A stretch of DNA of 64,000 nt. Origin: Myxococcales bacterium SG8_38 (GTDB lineage Bacteria; Myxococcota_A; Polyangia; Polyangiales; Houyiibacteriaceae). The stretch spans positions 17,316-81,315 of the forward strand of contig LJTN01000007.1 in assembly GCA_001303415.1 (NCBI GenBank), given 5' to 3'. This document shows, piece by piece, positions 49,737 through 58,092 of this stretch; the first letter of the stretch is position 1; the number at the start of each line of letters is the position of its first letter. The notes below the pieces were generated by a model. It was given only the letters and a program-made list of their open reading frames with translations, had not been told where the DNA came from and searched no databases. The position numbers were made by a program, and so were the translations under genes.

Positions 49737-51053
49737 TTGACTTCGGCTCCGGCCTCCGGGCGGTTTCTCGGCTTGGGATCCGGGATCGGTCTGGTCGTCG
49801 CGAATATGGTGGGTGCGGGTGTTTTCTTGAGCGCAGGCTTCATGGCCCAGGAGCTGAGCGCCGGATGGATCCTCGCGGCGTGGGTAGTCGGGGCGCTTCT
49901 CGCGATGGCGGGCGCGCGATCGTACGCCGAGGCGGCCATGCTGATTCCTCGGTCTGGGGGCGAGTACCGCTACCTCTCCGAGTTGCTCCACCCCGCGGTT
50001 GGCTATCTCGCCGGTTGGGCTTCGCTGCTGGTCGGGTTCTCGGCGCCGATGGCGATCAGCGCGTTTGGCGCGGCGGCTTTTGCATTCGCCGTATTCGGCG
50101 CAGGGAACGAACGGCTTGGCGCGGCGGTGCTCATCGGCTCGCTTTGCGTGCTCCACGCGGTCGGCCTCCGCTCGTCGAAGTGGGTGCAAAATGGTCTAGT
50201 CATCGTGAAGGGGCTTCTCATCCTCGCATTCGTCGCTTTCGGCTTGGCGTTGGGCGACAACAGTTGGCCCACTTGGGAGCCGGCGAGCGATTCGACCACG
50301 CTCGCGCTCCCCTTCGCGACCAGCTTGTTCTTCGTCGCCTACGCATTTTCCGGCTGGAACGCGGCAGCATACGCTGCCGGCGAGTTCCACGAGCCCCGGC
50401 GCGACGTACCGCAGGCCATGCTGATCGGCTGTGCGCTCGTGGGCATCGCGTACCTTTTGGTGAACTGGATCCTAGTCGCCAACCTCACGCCTGAGCGCGC
50501 CGAGGTGGTCTTCGAGTACGAAGAAGCCAGGGTGACGCTAGGCCATCTGGTCGCACGCGACTTCCTCGGCGACGCCGGCTCGAACGCCATGTCGTTGGGC
50601 ATCGCGGCGCTCATGGTGTCCAGCACCAGCGCGATGCTCTTGGTCGGTCCTCGTGTCTACGCGGAAATGGCGCGTGACGGCTTCCTGCCGTCGATGTTGC
50701 GCGCCAAGCCTGGCAGGCCGCCTCGGATGTCGATATTCCTGCAAGGAGCCATCGCCATTGCGCTGCTCTACATCCACACGATTGGTGACCTCTTGAGCAA
50801 CGTCGGCGGAATCCTAGTCCTGTTTTCGGCCTTGGTTTCGATCAGCCTCTTCGGCGTCAAGCGCCGCAGGCCGGACCTCGGCGCCCCGCGTCCGCAGGCA
50901 TTGGTGGCCGCCGCCATCTATTCGGGCTCTTCCATATGGATGCTCTACAACGCCTTCAAGACCCAGACCGGCCTCATCCCGTGGATCGCCATTGCAGCCG
51001 GCGCTGGGCTGTTGGCGTATGGCCTGACCGTCAGGAAGGCTCGTGGACGATGA
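49737..51053 (+). CDS. APC-family amino acid permease
   Basis: A 438-aa inner-membrane protein with about 12 TM helices. It starts [18 protein letters not shown], the unwound TM1 motif of APC transporters, and has the [22 protein letters not shown] block. Substrate cannot be told. The start used is TTG 49737; no strong ribosome site is seen, and the conserved motif lies only 14 residues further. Its 3' end overlaps convergent purL by 23 bp. Confidence 0.85.
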
Positions 51054-53322
51054 AGTCGAGGGCGGCCGCATGTGCTTCGGCTAGCTCTTCGATTGGAACA
51101 TCGCAGATGTCCTCGATCAACAGCGTAGCGCCGCCGACCCGGCCGATCTTCCGAAACGGAACGCCGTAGCGACGACAAATTTCGCCGACGTCGCCGACGT
51201 CGCTCGGCGAGATGCTCACGATGATGCGGGAAGGCTCTTCGCTGAAGAGCAGAGCATGCGCGGGCGCATCGTCGGTCGGGGGTAGGGTGACCCGAGCGCC
51301 GAGACCTTCGGCAATGCACGATTCGGCCAAGCAGATTGCGATGCCGCCGTCGCTGATGTCGTGTGCGCTTTGAAGCAGCCTATTGCCGATGAGCTCGAGC
51401 ATCGCGTGTTGCAGTGCGACCTCCGCGTCCAAGTCGATTCCCACGGGTGCTCCGGTCACCGACCCCGTTCGCTGGACGAGCCATTCCGATCCGCCCAGCA
51501 CTCCACGGGACGGCTCTCCCAAGTGCGCGATCACGTCACCATCGCGAACGAATCCGAGCCCAAGCCGGTGGCTCGGATCCTCGAGCTGGCCGACGGTGGC
51601 GACGGTGGGCGTAGGCAAGATCGATCTGCGATCCGTTTCGTTATAAAGGCTCACGTTGCCCGAGACCACGGGAGCGCCGAGCGCTCTGCAGGCGGCCGAC
51701 AATCCGTCGATGGCCTGCGAGAAACGCCACATCTGCTCGGGCACTTCGGGATTTCCGAAGTTGAGGCAGTCGGTGAGACCAAGCGGCTTGGCGCCGACGC
51801 ACACCAGATTGCGAGTGCACTCGGCGACCGCCATGGCCGCACCTGCGAAGGGGTCGAGCTCTACGTGCCGAGCGTTGCAGTCGACCGAGATGGCGAGGTA
51901 CTTCTCACGCGTGCCCGTCTCGTCCCTGCAAAACACGCGAATCACGGCGGCGTCTCCATCGCCGGGCCGTATCACCGTGCCGTCCTGCACGATGTGATCG
52001 TACTGCCGCCAGATCCACGAGCGGCTCCCGATGTTCGGTGAGCCAATCAAACGCACGATCTCGGCGCCGAGGTCCTCTGGCGCATCTCCCGTCAGAGAGA
52101 CGATCGAAGCCCGTTCGGTTCGCGGCCGTTGGGGACGGTCGTACTTCGGTGCGGCATCGGTCAATAGGTCCACCGGCAGATCGACGACCACCACCGGGTC
52201 TCGCGTGCCCGTGCCGTCGAAGGGGTCGTAGCCTGGCGTGGCCTTGCACACGAAACGCCCCGTGTCCGTGACCCGGCCTACGATGGAGGCATCGAGGTCC
52301 CATTTGGCGCAGATATCGAAGACCTCTTGCTCCCGGCCCTCTTTGGCCACCATCAGCATGCGTTCCTGCGACTCGCTGAGCAGCATCTCGTAGGGACTGA
52401 GAGCTTTTGTGCGTCGAGGAATCGCGTCGAGGTCCAGCTCGACGCCGTTGCCCGCACGCGCGGCCATCTCCACGGACGACGAGGTGAGCCCCGCGGCGCC
52501 CATGTCTTGTACGCCGGCCAGGCAGTCGGTCTTGAATATCTCCAGACACGCCTCCAACAAGAGCTTTTCCATGAACGGGTCGCCTACCTGCACCGTTGGC
52601 AGCTTGCTCTCGGTTTCGTCCCCGAACTCGGCGCTCGCCATGGTGGCTCCGTGAATGCCATCGCGCCCCGTTTTCGCACCGACGTAGATGATCGGATTGC
52701 CTACGCCCTCGGCCACGCCGAAAAAGAGCTCCTCGGTCTTGGCGATTCCGACGGTGAAGGCGTTGACGAGAATGTTGCCGTCGTAGCTGGCATCGAACTG
52801 CACCTCGCCGCCGACCGTGGGGACGCCGATGCAGTTGCCGTACCCGCCGATCCCAGCGACGACCCCTTTCAACAGATGAGGCGTCTTCGGATGATCGGGG
52901 CGCCCGAAGCGGAGCGAGTTGAGCGATGCGACGGGCCGCGCACCCATGGTGAATACGTCGCGCAGGATGCCGCCGACGCCCGTCGCTGCGCCCTGATACG
53001 GCTCGATGTACGAAGGATGATTGTGCGACTCCATCTTGAACACGGCGCAGAAGCCGTCGCCGATGTCGACGGCGCCCGCATTTTCACCGGGCCCTTGAAC
53101 CACTTGTGGTCCGGTCGTGGGAAGCCTCCCCAAGTGGATCCGTGAAGACTTGTAGGAGCAATGCTCGGACCACATCACGCTTATCACTCCGAGCTCCGCG
53201 TAGCTCGGCTTGCGTGACAGCGTAGTCAGCACTCGGTCCCATTCGTGATCCGCGAGGCCGAACTCCCTCGCGATCGCAGGGGAGCTTTCCGGTTCTCCAG
53301 GAAAATTCGCTGGTGCGCTCAT
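51031..53322 (-). CDS. purL: Phosphoribosylformylglycinamidine synthase subunit PurL
   Basis: A 763-aa small-type PurL that converts FGAR to FGAM with ATP, using ammonia from Pur[41 protein letters not shown] and the C-terminal AIRS domain ([14 protein letters not shown]) are typical. I chose ATG 53322, which overlaps the purQ stop as ATGA; the ORF-track extension to 53760 lies over purQ. Small PurL normally needs PurS too, which is not recognised in the window. Confidence 0.95.
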
Positions 53323-54014
53323 TCGAATCCCAAGTGCCGTCGAAGCGACTGAAAAATGGCTAGTCCGTCGTCGTTGCCGAGGATGGCCTCGCTTGCTCGT
53401 TCCGGGTGCGGCATCATCCCGAGGACGTTCCTTTCGCGGTTGTACACGCCTGCGATGTCTCCGACCGATCCGTTCGGATTCGCATTGCTTCCGTTGGGGG
53501 CGCCGCCTCGGCGGGTGCTGTAGCGGAACGCGATCTGCCCCTGTTGCTCGAGCTCGGCGAGGCCCCGTTCCGTGGTGTGATAGCGTCCGTCCGCGTGGGC
53601 AATTGGCAAGCGAAGGATGGTGCCTTTGCCCATGTCCGTGAAAGGGCCTTCGCTTTCGACGCGCACGTAGACGTCGCGGCATTCGAAACGAAGGTGCGCA
53701 TTGCGAGTCAAGGCCCCCGGCAAGAGACCCATCTCGGTGAGGATCTGAAAGCCGTTGCAAATGCCCAGGATGGGCCCGCCGCGGCCCGCGAAATCCCGGA
53801 TGGCGCTCACGATGGGGCTGAACCCTGCGATGGCGCCGGCGCGCAAGTAGTCTCCGTACGAAAAGCCCCCCGGGATCACCACCGCGTCGGCATCACCTAG
53901 GCTCGTTCGCTTATGAAAGACGTACCAGGCATCCGCTCCGAGGACGTCTCGCACGGCGTGCAAAGCGTCCCAGTCGGCGTTCGATCCCGGAAACTGTATG
54001 ACCGCGACTCTCAT
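53319..54014 (-). CDS. purQ: Phosphoribosylformylglycinamidine synthase subunit PurQ
   Basis: A 231-aa class I glutamine amidotransferase supplying ammonia to Pur[37 protein letters not shown], the nucleophile Cys in [17 protein letters not shown] and the MMPHPERA His site are all present. The N-terminus is canonical, so the ATG 54014 start is secure, although it lies 104 bp inside the end of the signal-peptidase-like gene. Confidence 0.95.
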
Positions 54015-54621
54015 TGGCTTGGGCGCTCTCGGCGGGCGGAGCATCGACGGGCGTGACCCGAAACACGATGGTGCCTCGGCACGTCGACGCGTCGACCGTT
54101 CCGTACGCGCGACTGTCCTGCCCCATGTATGCCCGGTGGTCTCCGAGTAGATAGAGCATTCCGTCGAGAATCTCCGTCTTGCGAATCGACTTGCGGCCGT
54201 TTTCGTCGATGAAGATGCGGTGTGGCTCGGGTCCAAGGTACTCGTCTCCCCAAATGACCGTCGACGTCTGATCGTTGTCGGCGTTGTGAAAGGAGATCTT
54301 TCCCTTTTCGTCGAACACCACGGGCTCGCCGTCGACGCGGACTGCGCTGCCAGCCGAATCGATGACCATGCCTCCGGTCGCAGCAACGCGTCCGACCACC
54401 CAGCCGTCCTCGGTGGGATGCCGGCAAACCGCGATCGACCCGAGGACGGGCTCCGCGCGCTTGTTGATCAAGACCCTTTCTCCGCGGAGCAACGTCGGCG
54501 CCATGCCATTGTGCCCCACTTCTGCCATGTCGAAGACGAACGCCTTGAGGAGCAGCGCGATGACGATGATGATCGCGCCCACCCAGGAGAGAAATCCGAG
54601 CCCACTTCGAACCGCACCCAC
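53911..54621 (-). CDS. Signal peptidase I-like protein lacking the Ser-Lys dyad
   Basis: A 236-aa S26-type protein with one N-terminal TM helix (WVGAIIIVIALLLKAFVF) and a periplasmic domain. Family boxes are recognisable: GHNGMAPTLLRGERV stands where SxMxPTL is usual, so the nucleophile Ser is Gly; VGRVAATGG stands where KRVVGLPGD is usual, so the catalytic Lys is Gly; GDHRAYMGQDSRAYG retains the GDN-R/DSR box. It is therefore probably not a protease. GTG 54621 is preferred as start, 7 bp after thiE stop. Its last 104 bp overlap purQ. A role in membrane assembly is only a guess. Confidence 0.78.
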   Translation of the reverse strand: MGAVRSGLGFLSWVGAIIIVIALLLKAFVFDMAEVGHNGMAPTLLRGERVLINKRAEPVLGSIAVCRHPTEDGWVVGRVAATGGMVIDSAGSAVRVDGEPVVFDEKGKISFHNADNDQTSTVIWGDEYLGPEPHRIFIDENGRKSIRKTEILDGMLYLLGDHRAYMGQDSRAYGTVDASTCRGTIVFRVTPVDAPPAESAQANESRGHTVSGIERRLGRFARRARRPRSGCLVRLS

Positions 54622-54628
54622 AGCCTGG

Positions 54629-55267
54629 CTATTCGCCGCACTCGGGGCGCTTGTCAAGCAGGGTCGACAAAGCCCGGAGCGTCTCGGCCGGATCGCTCGA
54701 CTCATAGATTGCACGCCGGACGGCTACGCCGAACGCGCCGGCAGAGATCAACGGCTCGACGTGCTCGGCGCCAATCCCTCCCAGCGCGAACGTCGGCATG
54801 CCGACACCAGCGATCGCCCTTTCAAACCCCCCAATGCCCAGGGGCACACCTTTGCCGGGAACCACGAAAACAGGGCTCAGAAACCCATAAGAAGCGCCTC
54901 GCCGCTCCGCGGTTTGAAGGCCTGCCCGATCGTGGCGTGATACCCCGATCAGCCTCAATTCCGGCCAAAACCGGGCCACGACCTCCGGCGCGAGACCCAG
55001 CTCGGGGAGATGGACGCCGTCCGCACCCACGATCTGGGCGACGTCCGGCCGTCGATTGATCGTCAACGCGGCGCCGGCAGCGGAGGTGAGCTCGCGCAGC
55101 TCCCGCCCCCACGCGGCCAATTGGCGATCCGATGCGCGCTTGGCGCGCAATTGCACGCCGACGAGGCCGGCCGGACAGCCATCGAGCGCGCGCCGAATCG
55201 ACGCGATGGGGCCCTCCGGGCGATCCGGGTCGGTGATGATCCAGATCCGGGGTAGGCCTCCCACCAT
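54629..55267 (-). CDS. thiE: Thiamine phosphate synthase (ThiE/TenI family)
   Basis: A 212-aa TIM-barrel protein. GVQLRAKRASDRQL (the VQLReK region), HLPELGLAPEVV and GVSRHDRAGL (the VSCH-type motif) and ALGGIGAEHVEPLISAGAFGVAV belong to the ThiE/TenI family. ThiE joins the pyrimidine and thiazole halves of thiamine. A TenI-type aromatase is an alternative, since both share this fold. It follows thiG by 9 bp. Confidence 0.8.
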   Translation of the reverse strand: MVGGLPRIWIITDPDRPEGPIASIRRALDGCPAGLVGVQLRAKRASDRQLAAWGRELRELTSAAGAALTINRRPDVAQIVGADGVHLPELGLAPEVVARFWPELRLIGVSRHDRAGLQTAERRGASYGFLSPVFVVPGKGVPLGIGGFERAIAGVGMPTFALGGIGAEHVEPLISAGAFGVAVRRAIYESSDPAETLRALSTLLDKRPECGE

Positions 55268-55276
55268 CGCGTCGAC

Positions 55277-56074
55277 TCAGGAGCGGCTGTCCTGATCGGA
55301 GCCGATGACGCCTTCGAGCGGGCTCGATGCGGTGGCGTAGAGCCTTCGCGGGATCCGGCCGGCAAGGAATGCATCCCGACCGGCTTCGACCGCCGCCTTC
55401 ATCGCGCGGGCCATGCGAACCGGGTCCTTCGCGCCCGCGATCGCGGTATTCATCAGCACGCCGTCGATGCCGAGCTCCATCGCGATGGCTGCATCCGACG
55501 CCGTACCCACACCGGCGTCGACGATGACGGGCACGGCGGCGTGCTTGACGATGATCTCGATGTTGAACGGATTCCGCACACCGAGACCGCTTCCGATCGG
55601 CGCGGCGAGCGGCATCACCGCAGCGCAACCCATGTCCTCCAAGCGGCGTGCCGCCACCGGGTCGTCATTGAAGTAGGGCAGGACCGTAAACCCGTCTTCC
55701 ACCAGCGTTTTAGCCGCTTCGAGCGTCGCGGGGACGTCGGGAAAGAGGGTTTTCTCATCTCCGATCACCTCCAGCTTGATGAGGGGAGTGTCGAGCAGCT
55801 CGCGAGCCAGGCGCGCCGTGCGGATGGCGTCTTGCGCGGTATAGCAACCGGCCGTGTTAGGAAGGATCGTGTAGTTGCCCTCCCGCAGCACCGACATGAT
55901 CGAGTCGGCTCCCGTGGCTTTCAGGTCGACGCGCCGAACGGCGACGGTCACCACCTCGCATCCCGACGCCTGCAACGCTCTTCGAGCGGTATCGAGGTCC
56001 AGGTACTTCCCGGTGCCGGTGAACAATCGCGACCGAAACTCGAACTGGCCGATCTTGAGCAGATCCTGAGTCAC
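55277..56074 (-). CDS. thiG: Thiazole synthase ThiG
   Basis: A 265-aa barrel enzyme making the thiazole phosphate of thiamine from DXP, dehydroglycine and ThiS thiocarboxylate. [17 protein letters not shown] carries the catalytic Lys, and [26 protein letters not shown] is conserved. GTG 56074 is the start; the thiS stop is directly upstream, and GGAGGCGG, within the thiS end, serves as ribosome site. ThiO or ThiH for dehydroglycine is not in the window. Confidence 0.95.
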
Positions 56075-56275
56075 TCAACCGCCTCCTACGAAGTGCACGA
56101 CTTCGACGTGGTCACCCTCGTGCAACACCGTGCTCTGGTGTCGAGCGCGCGGAACGACTTCTTCATTGCGCTCCACGGCCACGAGCGTGCCGCCGAGACC
56201 GAGCGAAGCCAAGAGCTCCTTCACAGTCGTGCTCGCTTCGACCTGCAGTTCCTCTCCGTTTACCAAGAGCCGCAT
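56075..56275 (-). CDS. thiS: Sulfur-carrier protein ThiS
   Basis: A 66-aa ubiquitin-fold protein starting [14 protein letters not shown] and ending VHFVGGG, so it has the C-terminal GG that is thiocarboxylated. I chose ATG 56275 rather than the ORF-track 56311, since the family N-terminus starts there. It is first in the thi-pur run. No TPP riboswitch was recognised before it. Confidence 0.9.
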
Positions 56276-56359
56276 CGAACAGATGCTAGGACCGCCCCCA
56301 TGGAGCCGCAAGCGGGCGTCCCATGGGCGCGCGCGCGGCCCGATGGTAGGCTCGCGAGC

Positions 56360-57226
56360 GTGAGGCAGATCCTGCAGGGCGACAACCTCGAGCTACTGGC
56401 GAAGCTTCCCCGCGGATTTGCCCGCCTGATCTACATCGATCCCCCCTTCAACACGGGCCGCAAACAAGCGCGCAACCGCATGAGCGTCAGAGCAAGCGCC
56501 CAGGGCATCCGCGGAGGCTTCGGCGGCAGGCGCTACGAAGTCGAACGATTGCAAAGCCCTGCATATGACGACGACTTCGACGACTACGTCGCGTTTCTCA
56601 TCAGCCGAATCGAAGCGGCCCTGCCTTGCCTGACGGCGGATGGCTCGCTTTTCGTCCATCTCGACTACCGAGAGGTTCACTACGTGAAAGTCGCCCTCGA
56701 CCGGCTGCTGGGGCGTGCGTGCTTTCGCAACGAGATCATCTGGGCATACGACTTCGGTGGCCGGCCGAAGCGATGGTGGCCGGCAAAGCACGATACGATC
56801 CTGTGGTACGTCCTCGACCCCCAGCGGTACGTCTTTCGCTTCGAGGAGATGGACCGAATTCCGTACATGGCGCCCGGCCTCGTCGGGAAAGACAAAGCAG
56901 CGCGTGGCAAGACGCCAACCGACGTTTGGTGGCACACCATCGTGCCCACCAACAGCAAGGAAAAGACCGGCTACCCGACCCAGAAGCCACTCGGTCTCTT
57001 GGAGCGGATAGTGAAAGTGCACACCGACCCCGGCGACATCGTGCTCGATTTTTTCGCGGGAAGCGGAACCGCGGGCGAGGCCGCGGCGCGGCTGGGTCGA
57101 GGTTTCGTGCTCATGGACGAGCACCCCGACGCCATCGCGATCATGCGAAAGCGTCTCGCGCAATGGAACCCCGTCGTCGAGGCGCTTGCCGACTACCGGG
57201 GCACCAGCTCGACCTCGAATACGTGA
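56360..57226 (+). CDS. Orphan beta-class DNA methyltransferase (N4/N6)
   Basis: A 288-aa methyltransferase with motif IV as IDPPFNTG near the N-terminus and motif I as [13 protein letters not shown] near the C-terminus, the beta-class order. The target sequence is not predictable. GTG 56360 ([13 protein letters not shown]) is preferred over ATG 56300 because the family commonly begins there; both are in frame. No restriction endonuclease gene is beside it, so it may be regulatory like CcrM. It overlaps the convergent cyclotransferase gene by 34 bp. Confidence 0.85.
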
Positions 57227-58092
57227 GGCCAGAGCTTTCCCGTCAATAGAAACGTGTCGGTGTCGGGCTTGTACGCGATGCCGTTGAGCACGTCGGCACG
57301 CAGCGCCTCGCGCCAAGAGAGTAGGTTGCTGGCATCGATGGAGCCGGTGACCCTGCCGGTCTTGGCATCGATGCGGAGAATCTCCTGACGCTGCCAGATG
57401 TTGGCGTAGACGTCGGAGCCCACGCACTCGAGCTCGTTGAGCTGAGGCACTGGGTGACCGTTCTTCAACACGGTGACCTCTCGAATCAGCTCCATCGTGT
57501 CGGGATTCCGAAACTCCAGAATCGACGAGCCATCGCTCATCACCAGCGCGTTGCCGTCGAAGCAGAGCCCCCAGCCCTCCCCGGGATAGCGAAGCCTCTT
57601 TTGCTCCTCGAGGGATCCGAGGTCCGACACGACGGCCACGCCCTCCCGCCAGGTCAGCTGAATCAGCTGCTGACCGACGACCGCCAGCCCTTCTCCAAAG
57701 ATCTGGGGCTCGAGCCTGCGCTCGGCGAGAATCTCGCCGTTCTCGAGACGGACTCTGCGCAGCGACGAGCGGCCGTACCGGCCGGTGCTCTCGTATAGAA
57801 CGCCTCCATGCCAGATGAGACCTTGCGTGAATGCGTCGTCGGCATGCGGGTACTTTCGAATCACGCGCACCCCGAGCTCTTCCACGGCGGGGGCGACAGC
57901 GGGGCGTGGCGCCTCCTCGGGCGCGATCTCGACCGGAGTGACCTTCTCGTCTGCCGCCTCCCGAAGCCGAGGTGCGAGCACGATGCCGACGGCGAGGATG
58001 CCTCCCAACAGCATCCCTCCCCAAAGCAGCCCGGACGCGCGATGCTCCGCACGCTTGATCGCCTGCTGCCGACGTCCTCCCGCCCTCGCCAT
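57193..58092 (-). CDS. Glutaminyl-peptide cyclotransferase
   Basis: A 299-aa protein with an N-terminal TM anchor (GLLWGGMLLGGILAVGIVL) and a beta-propeller of the plant/bacterial glutaminyl cyclase type (FTQGLIWHGGVLYESTGRYG, LNELECVGSDVYANIW, NGIAYKPDTDTFLLTGKLW). It converts N-terminal Gln of exported proteins to pyroglutamate, in the periplasm or anchored. ATG 58092 is chosen so that the anchor is N-terminal; the ORF-track extension to 58701 lies under alr. Confidence 0.88.
   Translation of the reverse strand: MARAGGRRQQAIKRAEHRASGLLWGGMLLGGILAVGIVLAPRLREAADEKVTPVEIAPEEAPRPAVAPAVEELGVRVIRKYPHADDAFTQGLIWHGGVLYESTGRYGRSSLRRVRLENGEILAERRLEPQIFGEGLAVVGQQLIQLTWREGVAVVSDLGSLEEQKRLRYPGEGWGLCFDGNALVMSDGSSILEFRNPDTMELIREVTVLKNGHPVPQLNELECVGSDVYANIWQRQEILRIDAKTGRVTGSIDASNLLSWREALRADVLNGIAYKPDTDTFLLTGKLWPHVFEVELVPR

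Follow-up and report, generated by a model that had tools for sequence, protein, structure and literature searches.

Inactive homologues of signal peptidase I are known, and those found in the literature are Gram-positive, with an established role for SipA alone among them. In SipA the Ser and Lys are replaced by Asp and Gly and the peptide cleft is kept; peptidase activity was undetectable, and the protein is required for pilus polymerisation (PMC4049620). Staphylococcus aureus SpsA is an inactive signal peptidase homologue in which two conserved catalytic residues are missing, with an active signal peptidase alongside, and is described as dispensable only (PMC12445088). YbjN-family proteins, to which a neighbour of the present gene shows similarity, reportedly act through protein-protein interaction and fold like class I T3SS chaperones (PMC5398634). 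Our literature search for signal-peptidase pseudoenzymes in Myxococcota gave none in the titles and abstracts that it returned.

Here we analyse a pseudo-signal peptidase I gene, hereafter X, within the window, i.e. the whole 64,000-nucleotide stretch of Myxococcales bacterium SG8_38 DNA under study. Features of X and its surroundings are collected in Table 1.

X encodes a signal peptidase I homologue without the catalytic dyad

The start codon of X lies 7 bp past the thiE stop codon. The protein is recognised as an S26/signal peptidase I family member by both TIGR02227 (E 2e-17, 63.5 bits; curated cut-off 47) and PF10502 (E 2.4e-17, 63.9 bits; cut-off 22.9). As both curated profiles score X above the signal peptidase I cut-off, it will probably be mislabelled by automatic annotation. 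The catalytic Ser is absent from box B, which reads GHNGMAPTL when extended and has Gly39 at this position, and the catalytic Lys is absent from box D (VVGRVAATGG, extended), where it is replaced by Gly77. The same letters underlie the two Gly replacements reported in a preliminary description of this DNA, which also noted a retained GDxR...DSR box and membrane anchor. Both were found here, box E as GDHR...QDSR (canonical GDNR...DSR) and the anchor as a hydrophobic N-terminal helix. The DSR of box E is invariant among X sequences, with the GD and R nearly so.

Table 1 Features of X and the adjacent genes, with positions in the window
Feature	Position	Strand	Basis or remark
purL	51031..53322	(-)	ORF list, neighbourhood comparison
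purQ (FGAM synthase, glutaminase subunit)	53319..54014	(-)	adjoins X throughout genus
X, pseudo-signal peptidase I CDS	53911..54621	(-)	GTG start, 236 aa; profiles, orthologues
Aberrant C-terminus of X, junction ~54047/54048	53911..54047	(-)	~90-bp deletion; purQ read out of frame from 54014
Cys181 of X, second invariant Cys, after DSR	54079..54081	(-)	60/60 pseudo, 0/34 canonical
Box E of X, GDHRAYMGQDSR, retained	54109..54144	(-)	sequence, alignment
Box D of X, VVGRV (canonical xxKRV)	54385..54399	(-)	residue counts on alignment
Gly77 of X, Lys position in box D	54391-54393	(-)	G 36, A 3 of 39 X
Cys66 of X, invariant in pseudo-SPase lineage, before box D	54424..54426	(-)	60/60 pseudo vs 0/34 canonical
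Box B of X, GHNGMAPT (canonical xxSMxPT)	54493..54516	(-)	sequence, alignment
Gly39 of X, nucleophile Ser position	54505..54507	(-)	residue counts on alignment
Predicted N-terminal transmembrane helix, residues 7-29 of X	54535..54603	(-)	hydrophobic sequence; helix in AF2 model
thiE	54629..55267	(-)	adjoins X in genus and in 20/32 loci beyond
thiG	55277..56074	(-)	ORF list, neighbourhood comparison
thiS	56075..56311	(-)	ORF limits; true start probably internal

An AF2 model of X, computed from an alignment of ten genus sequences, consists of a transmembrane helix and a beta-domain (moderate quality, pLDDT 65), with low confidence for the box-B loop (pLDDT <50) and also for the C-terminus. Foldseek matched this model to E. 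coli LepB (best E 2.7e-6) and to S. pyogenes SipA (4n31, E 2.8e-3), again subject to the low-confidence box-B loop. A profile search of PDB sequences with X retrieved active signal peptidases as well as the inactive SipA entries 4n31 and 4k8w (E 1.3e-15 and 2.1e-14).

Dyad loss is conserved and a canonical LepB is present alongside

X orthologues were found in 17 of 18 same-genus genomes, the sole genome without one (G003) being a fragmented draft, and also in six families of the order (f1, f3, f4, f8, f9 and f10). In a single alignment of 39 X sequences, the Ser position is occupied by G (28), A (8) or S (3) and the Lys position by G (36) or A (3), with Lys itself in 0/39; canonical S26 sequences in the same alignment have Ser in 32/34 and Lys in 32/34. 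Two sister groups, f12 (f12 plus f7 sequences, n=15) and f25 (n=6), have kept Ser in 12/15 and 5/6 sequences respectively, and Lys in none (0/15 and 0/6), with G, A or L instead. A dyad of the ER-type Ser-His kind is likewise not seen, the Lys position holding G, A or L alone, and never His, across X, f12 and f25. All 60 sequences of these three groups carry the Cys66 and Cys181 pair, which occurs in 0/34 canonical sequences.

The preliminary description had named two observations that would speak against its reading of X as a non-enzymatic paralogue. Neither was made: no substitute Ser/Lys or Ser/His pair is conserved in the X site of the alignment, and no close relative with the normal dyad was found. 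Dyad loss holds across the genus, the six families and the sister groups elsewhere, which rules out an isolated mutation in the window copy. Beyond the class, none of the seven best phylum-level matches is a member of this lineage, some being canonical, with Ser and Lys, and the rest degenerate homologues of other kinds, devoid of the Cys pair. Three signal peptidase homologues from beyond the class (L203, L204 and L207) have Lys replaced by Arg and Ser by Asp, Gly or Ala, and have no Cys pair. Similarly, L115, L120 and L121 (f15, f16 and f24) combine Arg at the Lys position with Asp or Gly at that of Ser, have no Cys pair, and group neither with the canonical sequences nor with those that carry the Cys pair; L121 directly follows thiG-thiE.

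The genome to which the window belongs (3.6 Mb, 92% complete) contains a single further S26 gene, which encodes a canonical LepB whose boxes read SMEPTL and VKRVIG. A PF10502 search of the other genomes recovered a canonical S26 gene in all those searched except G013, which is only 81% complete. X thus lacks both Ser and Lys in a genome that also encodes an active-type signal peptidase and, given the absence of both catalytic residues, should be filed as a pseudo-signal-peptidase and not as signal peptidase I.

In a tree built after masking four alignment columns (Ser, Lys and the two Cys positions), each group forms one side of a branch (X 100/99, f12 100/95, f25 100/99, canonical 98/93). The persistence of these groups after masking excludes an artefact of the trait columns. 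At a minimum, the tree requires 3 changes of the Lys state and 10 of the Ser state, which would most simply reflect a single early loss of Lys in this lineage, then repeated loss (or regain) of Ser.

A dN/dS comparison, as suggested in the preliminary description, gave values of about 0.1-0.3 within the genus (mean 0.21; Nei-Gojobori, first 195 codons, 153 pairs). The window copy gave 0.10-0.24 against its relatives, rough values because dS is often >1, yet well below 1. X is under purifying selection. Conserved dyad loss, a separate LepB and purifying selection together make it very probable, on these sequence comparisons, that X is a non-enzymatic paralogue, as first proposed, and not the product of random mutation.

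A conserved neighbour of X is a candidate partner

The gene most often found downstream of X, termed Y, encodes an apparently secreted protein of ~170-200 aa, in which an apparent signal peptide is accompanied by a TDSNFDRxAFR motif and two invariant Cys. Two Y sequences were covered by a Pfam scan: one exceeded the cut-off for YbjN (PF10722, E 7e-5) and matched CesT and TY-Chap1 more weakly, and the second, from f25, had no Pfam match. No NCBIfam family matched Y.

Both genes, taken as X (or its f25 relative) plus Y above 50 bits, occur in 31 genomes, for which the hit tables were compared by hand. Y lies directly downstream of X on the same strand in 26 of the 31, an adjacency found across f1, f3, f8, f9 and f25. 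The five exceptions comprise three genomes with the genes on different contigs (G049, G260 and G019), one with X at a contig end (G033) and one in which they are 3.2 kb apart (G023). Loci with Y downstream of X include L046, L053, L049, L102, L103, L064 and L125; Y follows thiE at L191-L200, L209 and L210. In f25, where the X-Y pair is present without thi genes, the pseudo-signal-peptidase gene of L103, L104 and L106 is divergent from an adjacent yajC-secD-secF-recJ. On the strength of the 26/31 adjacency, f25 included, Y appears the strongest partner candidate for X.

The f5 genomes examined have thiG-thiE-Y with Y directly after thiE and no X-like gene detected upstream of it. Conversely, the Y search found no Y in the genus of the window, and f12 yielded none beyond weak generic matches. 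Hence, neither X nor Y strictly requires the other. The f25 pair without thi genes, the f5 Y without X and the genus X without Y suggest that the ancestor of this bacterial order probably had its genes arranged as thiS-thiG-thiE-X-Y, and that X and Y were later lost separately.

The same neighbourhoods bear on an unlikely alternative, in which X would serve canonical LepB or the Sec exit site as a non-catalytic partner or regulator, binding signal peptides and modulating their processing. X shares the LepB fold and is expected in the same membrane, canonical LepB is kept alongside, and the divergent arrangement with yajC-secD-secF recurs in some f25 genomes. However, lepB was not seen beside X in the loci examined, sec proximity is confined to part of one family, and the recurrent neighbours of X are Y and thiE.

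The window copy has lost its conserved C-terminus

In 17 genus relatives, X ends in a conserved tail of the type AHxYFELIR (...AHrYFELIR*), and in 17/17 the stop codon is located 69-72 bp ahead of purQ. Nucleotide alignment reveals that ~86 bp, covering the tail, the stop codon and part of the intergenic gap, are gone from the window copy, with another 4 bp gone nearer purQ. As a result, the open frame of X extends into purQ by 104 bp, and its final ~35 codons pass through that gene in a different frame. Short sequence similarity at the ends of the ~90-bp deletion suggests slippage or assembly collapse.

A conserved overlap with purQ is thus ruled out by the position of the stop codon in all 17 relatives. 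The 104-bp overlap had been taken earlier as a sign that the gene is kept intact; the overlap is present, but the copy has lost both its conserved tail and its stop. Being either a deletion private to this genome or an assembly error, the overlap provides no evidence that the gene was kept intact. It is nonetheless improbable that the window copy is itself decaying, having lost Y together with its stop codon and C-terminal tail: while the deletion is found in this genome alone and Y is missing from the genus, the core domain is intact, dN/dS against relatives is low, and the deletion may be an assembly error of a draft genome.

Linkage to thi and pur genes

Within the genus the gene order is thiS-thiG-thiE-X-purQ-purL. 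Of 32 X loci outside it, 20 have thiE immediately upstream of X in the same orientation. purQ adjoins X in 17/17 genus members and elsewhere lies directly downstream at L063 alone. The f12 and f25 relatives have neither thi nor pur neighbours; in f12 the X relative belongs instead to a conserved block (L108-L118, L131 and L136) that reads proB, TPR-like, trypsin-like secreted protease, pseudo-signal-peptidase, FHA/zinc-ribbon protein. In f1 (L050, L051, L057 and L058) a third small envelope-type gene of ~85-100 aa is located between thiG and thiE; its product has a hydrophobic N-terminus, then a conserved Cys and a TPR-like EALW.L.ERF motif, and a similar small gene occurs between thiG and thiE in the f5 loci L191-L200. 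Beside the thi genes of the window, ~56300-57226 (+) and 57193-58000 (-) hold what we take to be a DNA methyltransferase-like and a glutamine-cyclotransferase-like gene, each retained at this position in most of the genus.

The preliminary description had linked X by position to FGAM synthesis and thiamine. A functional purQ link, and with it the link to purine synthesis, is not supported, the adjacency being nearly confined to the genus. The thiE linkage is real and old, but is common to Y and absent in f12 and f25. Accordingly, of the thiE-purQ neighbourhood the thiE half is conserved and the purQ half is nearly genus-limited, and the proposed FGAM/thiamine function is weakly supported.

For X to anchor or assist thiamine or purine enzymes at the membrane seems highly improbable. 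The thiS-thiG-thiE-X order in these 20 loci and in the genus members examined, the X-purQ adjacency within the genus and the fact that Y likewise follows thiE in f5 would fit such a role. They are set against f12 and f25 relatives without these neighbours, a single purQ adjacency beyond the genus, and a topology that would make the domain periplasmic whereas ThiE and PurQ would be cytosolic. Equally remote is peptide cleavage by X through a rebuilt site (e.g. His37, the Cys pair or an Asp) in place of the Ser-Lys dyad: His37 is present in 33/39 and Cys66/Cys181 in 39/39 X sequences, and f12 and f25 mostly keep Ser, but neither a Ser/Lys nor a Ser/His pair is conserved in the X site, f12 and f25 have other residues in place of His37, a disulfide would account better than a nucleophile for two Cys that are invariant and lineage-specific within a periplasmic domain, and SipA, with comparable substitutions, shows no detectable peptidase activity (PMC4049620).

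Discussion

A non-catalytic role of X is well supported by the sequence evidence. On balance, we favour a model in which X is a non-catalytic, SipA-like, periplasmic peptide-binding scaffold that originally worked with Y. X would be held by one N-terminal membrane helix with the signal peptidase beta-domain on the periplasmic side, retaining the fold with small residues at the former Ser-Lys dyad and presumably no activity. Most likely, it would act as a scaffold or holdase, in the way proposed for S. pyogenes SipA: on the outer side of the inner membrane it would bind protein N-termini or exposed stretches of peptide and leave them uncut. Cys66 and Cys181 may form a disulfide. Ancestral X probably cooperated with, and may have contacted, the Y protein encoded directly downstream. 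Since Y has been lost in the genus of the window, X there must act either by itself or with a different partner; in the window copy the conserved C-terminal tail is missing as well.

A more speculative extension, doubtful as a whole, is that X and Y constitute a lineage-wide two-protein envelope module of myxobacteria, in which membrane-anchored X captures translocated polypeptides in what was once its substrate groove and hands them to Y, a secreted chaperone of YbjN/CesT type. This would represent a protease-derived periplasmic chaperone system, with Lys lost once and Ser later repeatedly.

X is a new clade of an already known kind, the pseudo-signal-peptidases. Its lineage is old, well sampled and Gram-negative, and illustrates the passage from essential protease to non-enzyme, probably with Lys lost first and Ser later; it also carries a Cys pair of its own and comes with a candidate partner, Y, through which the function of a dead signal peptidase becomes directly testable.

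X matches LepB (S26A) in profile, in fold and, except for the missing dyad, in boxes B, D and E; it exists in addition to LepB and forms a separate, well-supported lineage. Y resembles YbjN-family and T3SS-chaperone-like proteins through the PF10722 match above cut-off of one Y, but differs in its apparent signal peptide, two invariant Cys and TDSNFDRxAFR motif. X and SpsA are both signal peptidase homologues without two conserved catalytic residues in genomes with an active-type signal peptidase; unlike SpsA, X has lineage-specific Cys residues and its own conserved neighbours. The closest functional precedent for X is SipA (LepA/SipA2) of Streptococcus pyogenes (PDB 4N31/4K8W). Both have the signal peptidase I fold and a membrane anchor, with Asp48 and Gly85 in SipA where X has Gly39 and Gly77. 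Whereas SipA belongs to Gram-positive pilus clusters, X occurs in a Gram-negative lineage beside thiE and a YbjN-like gene, with no pilin, pilus or sortase gene identified among its neighbours in the loci examined, and is further set apart from SipA by its invariant Cys pair.
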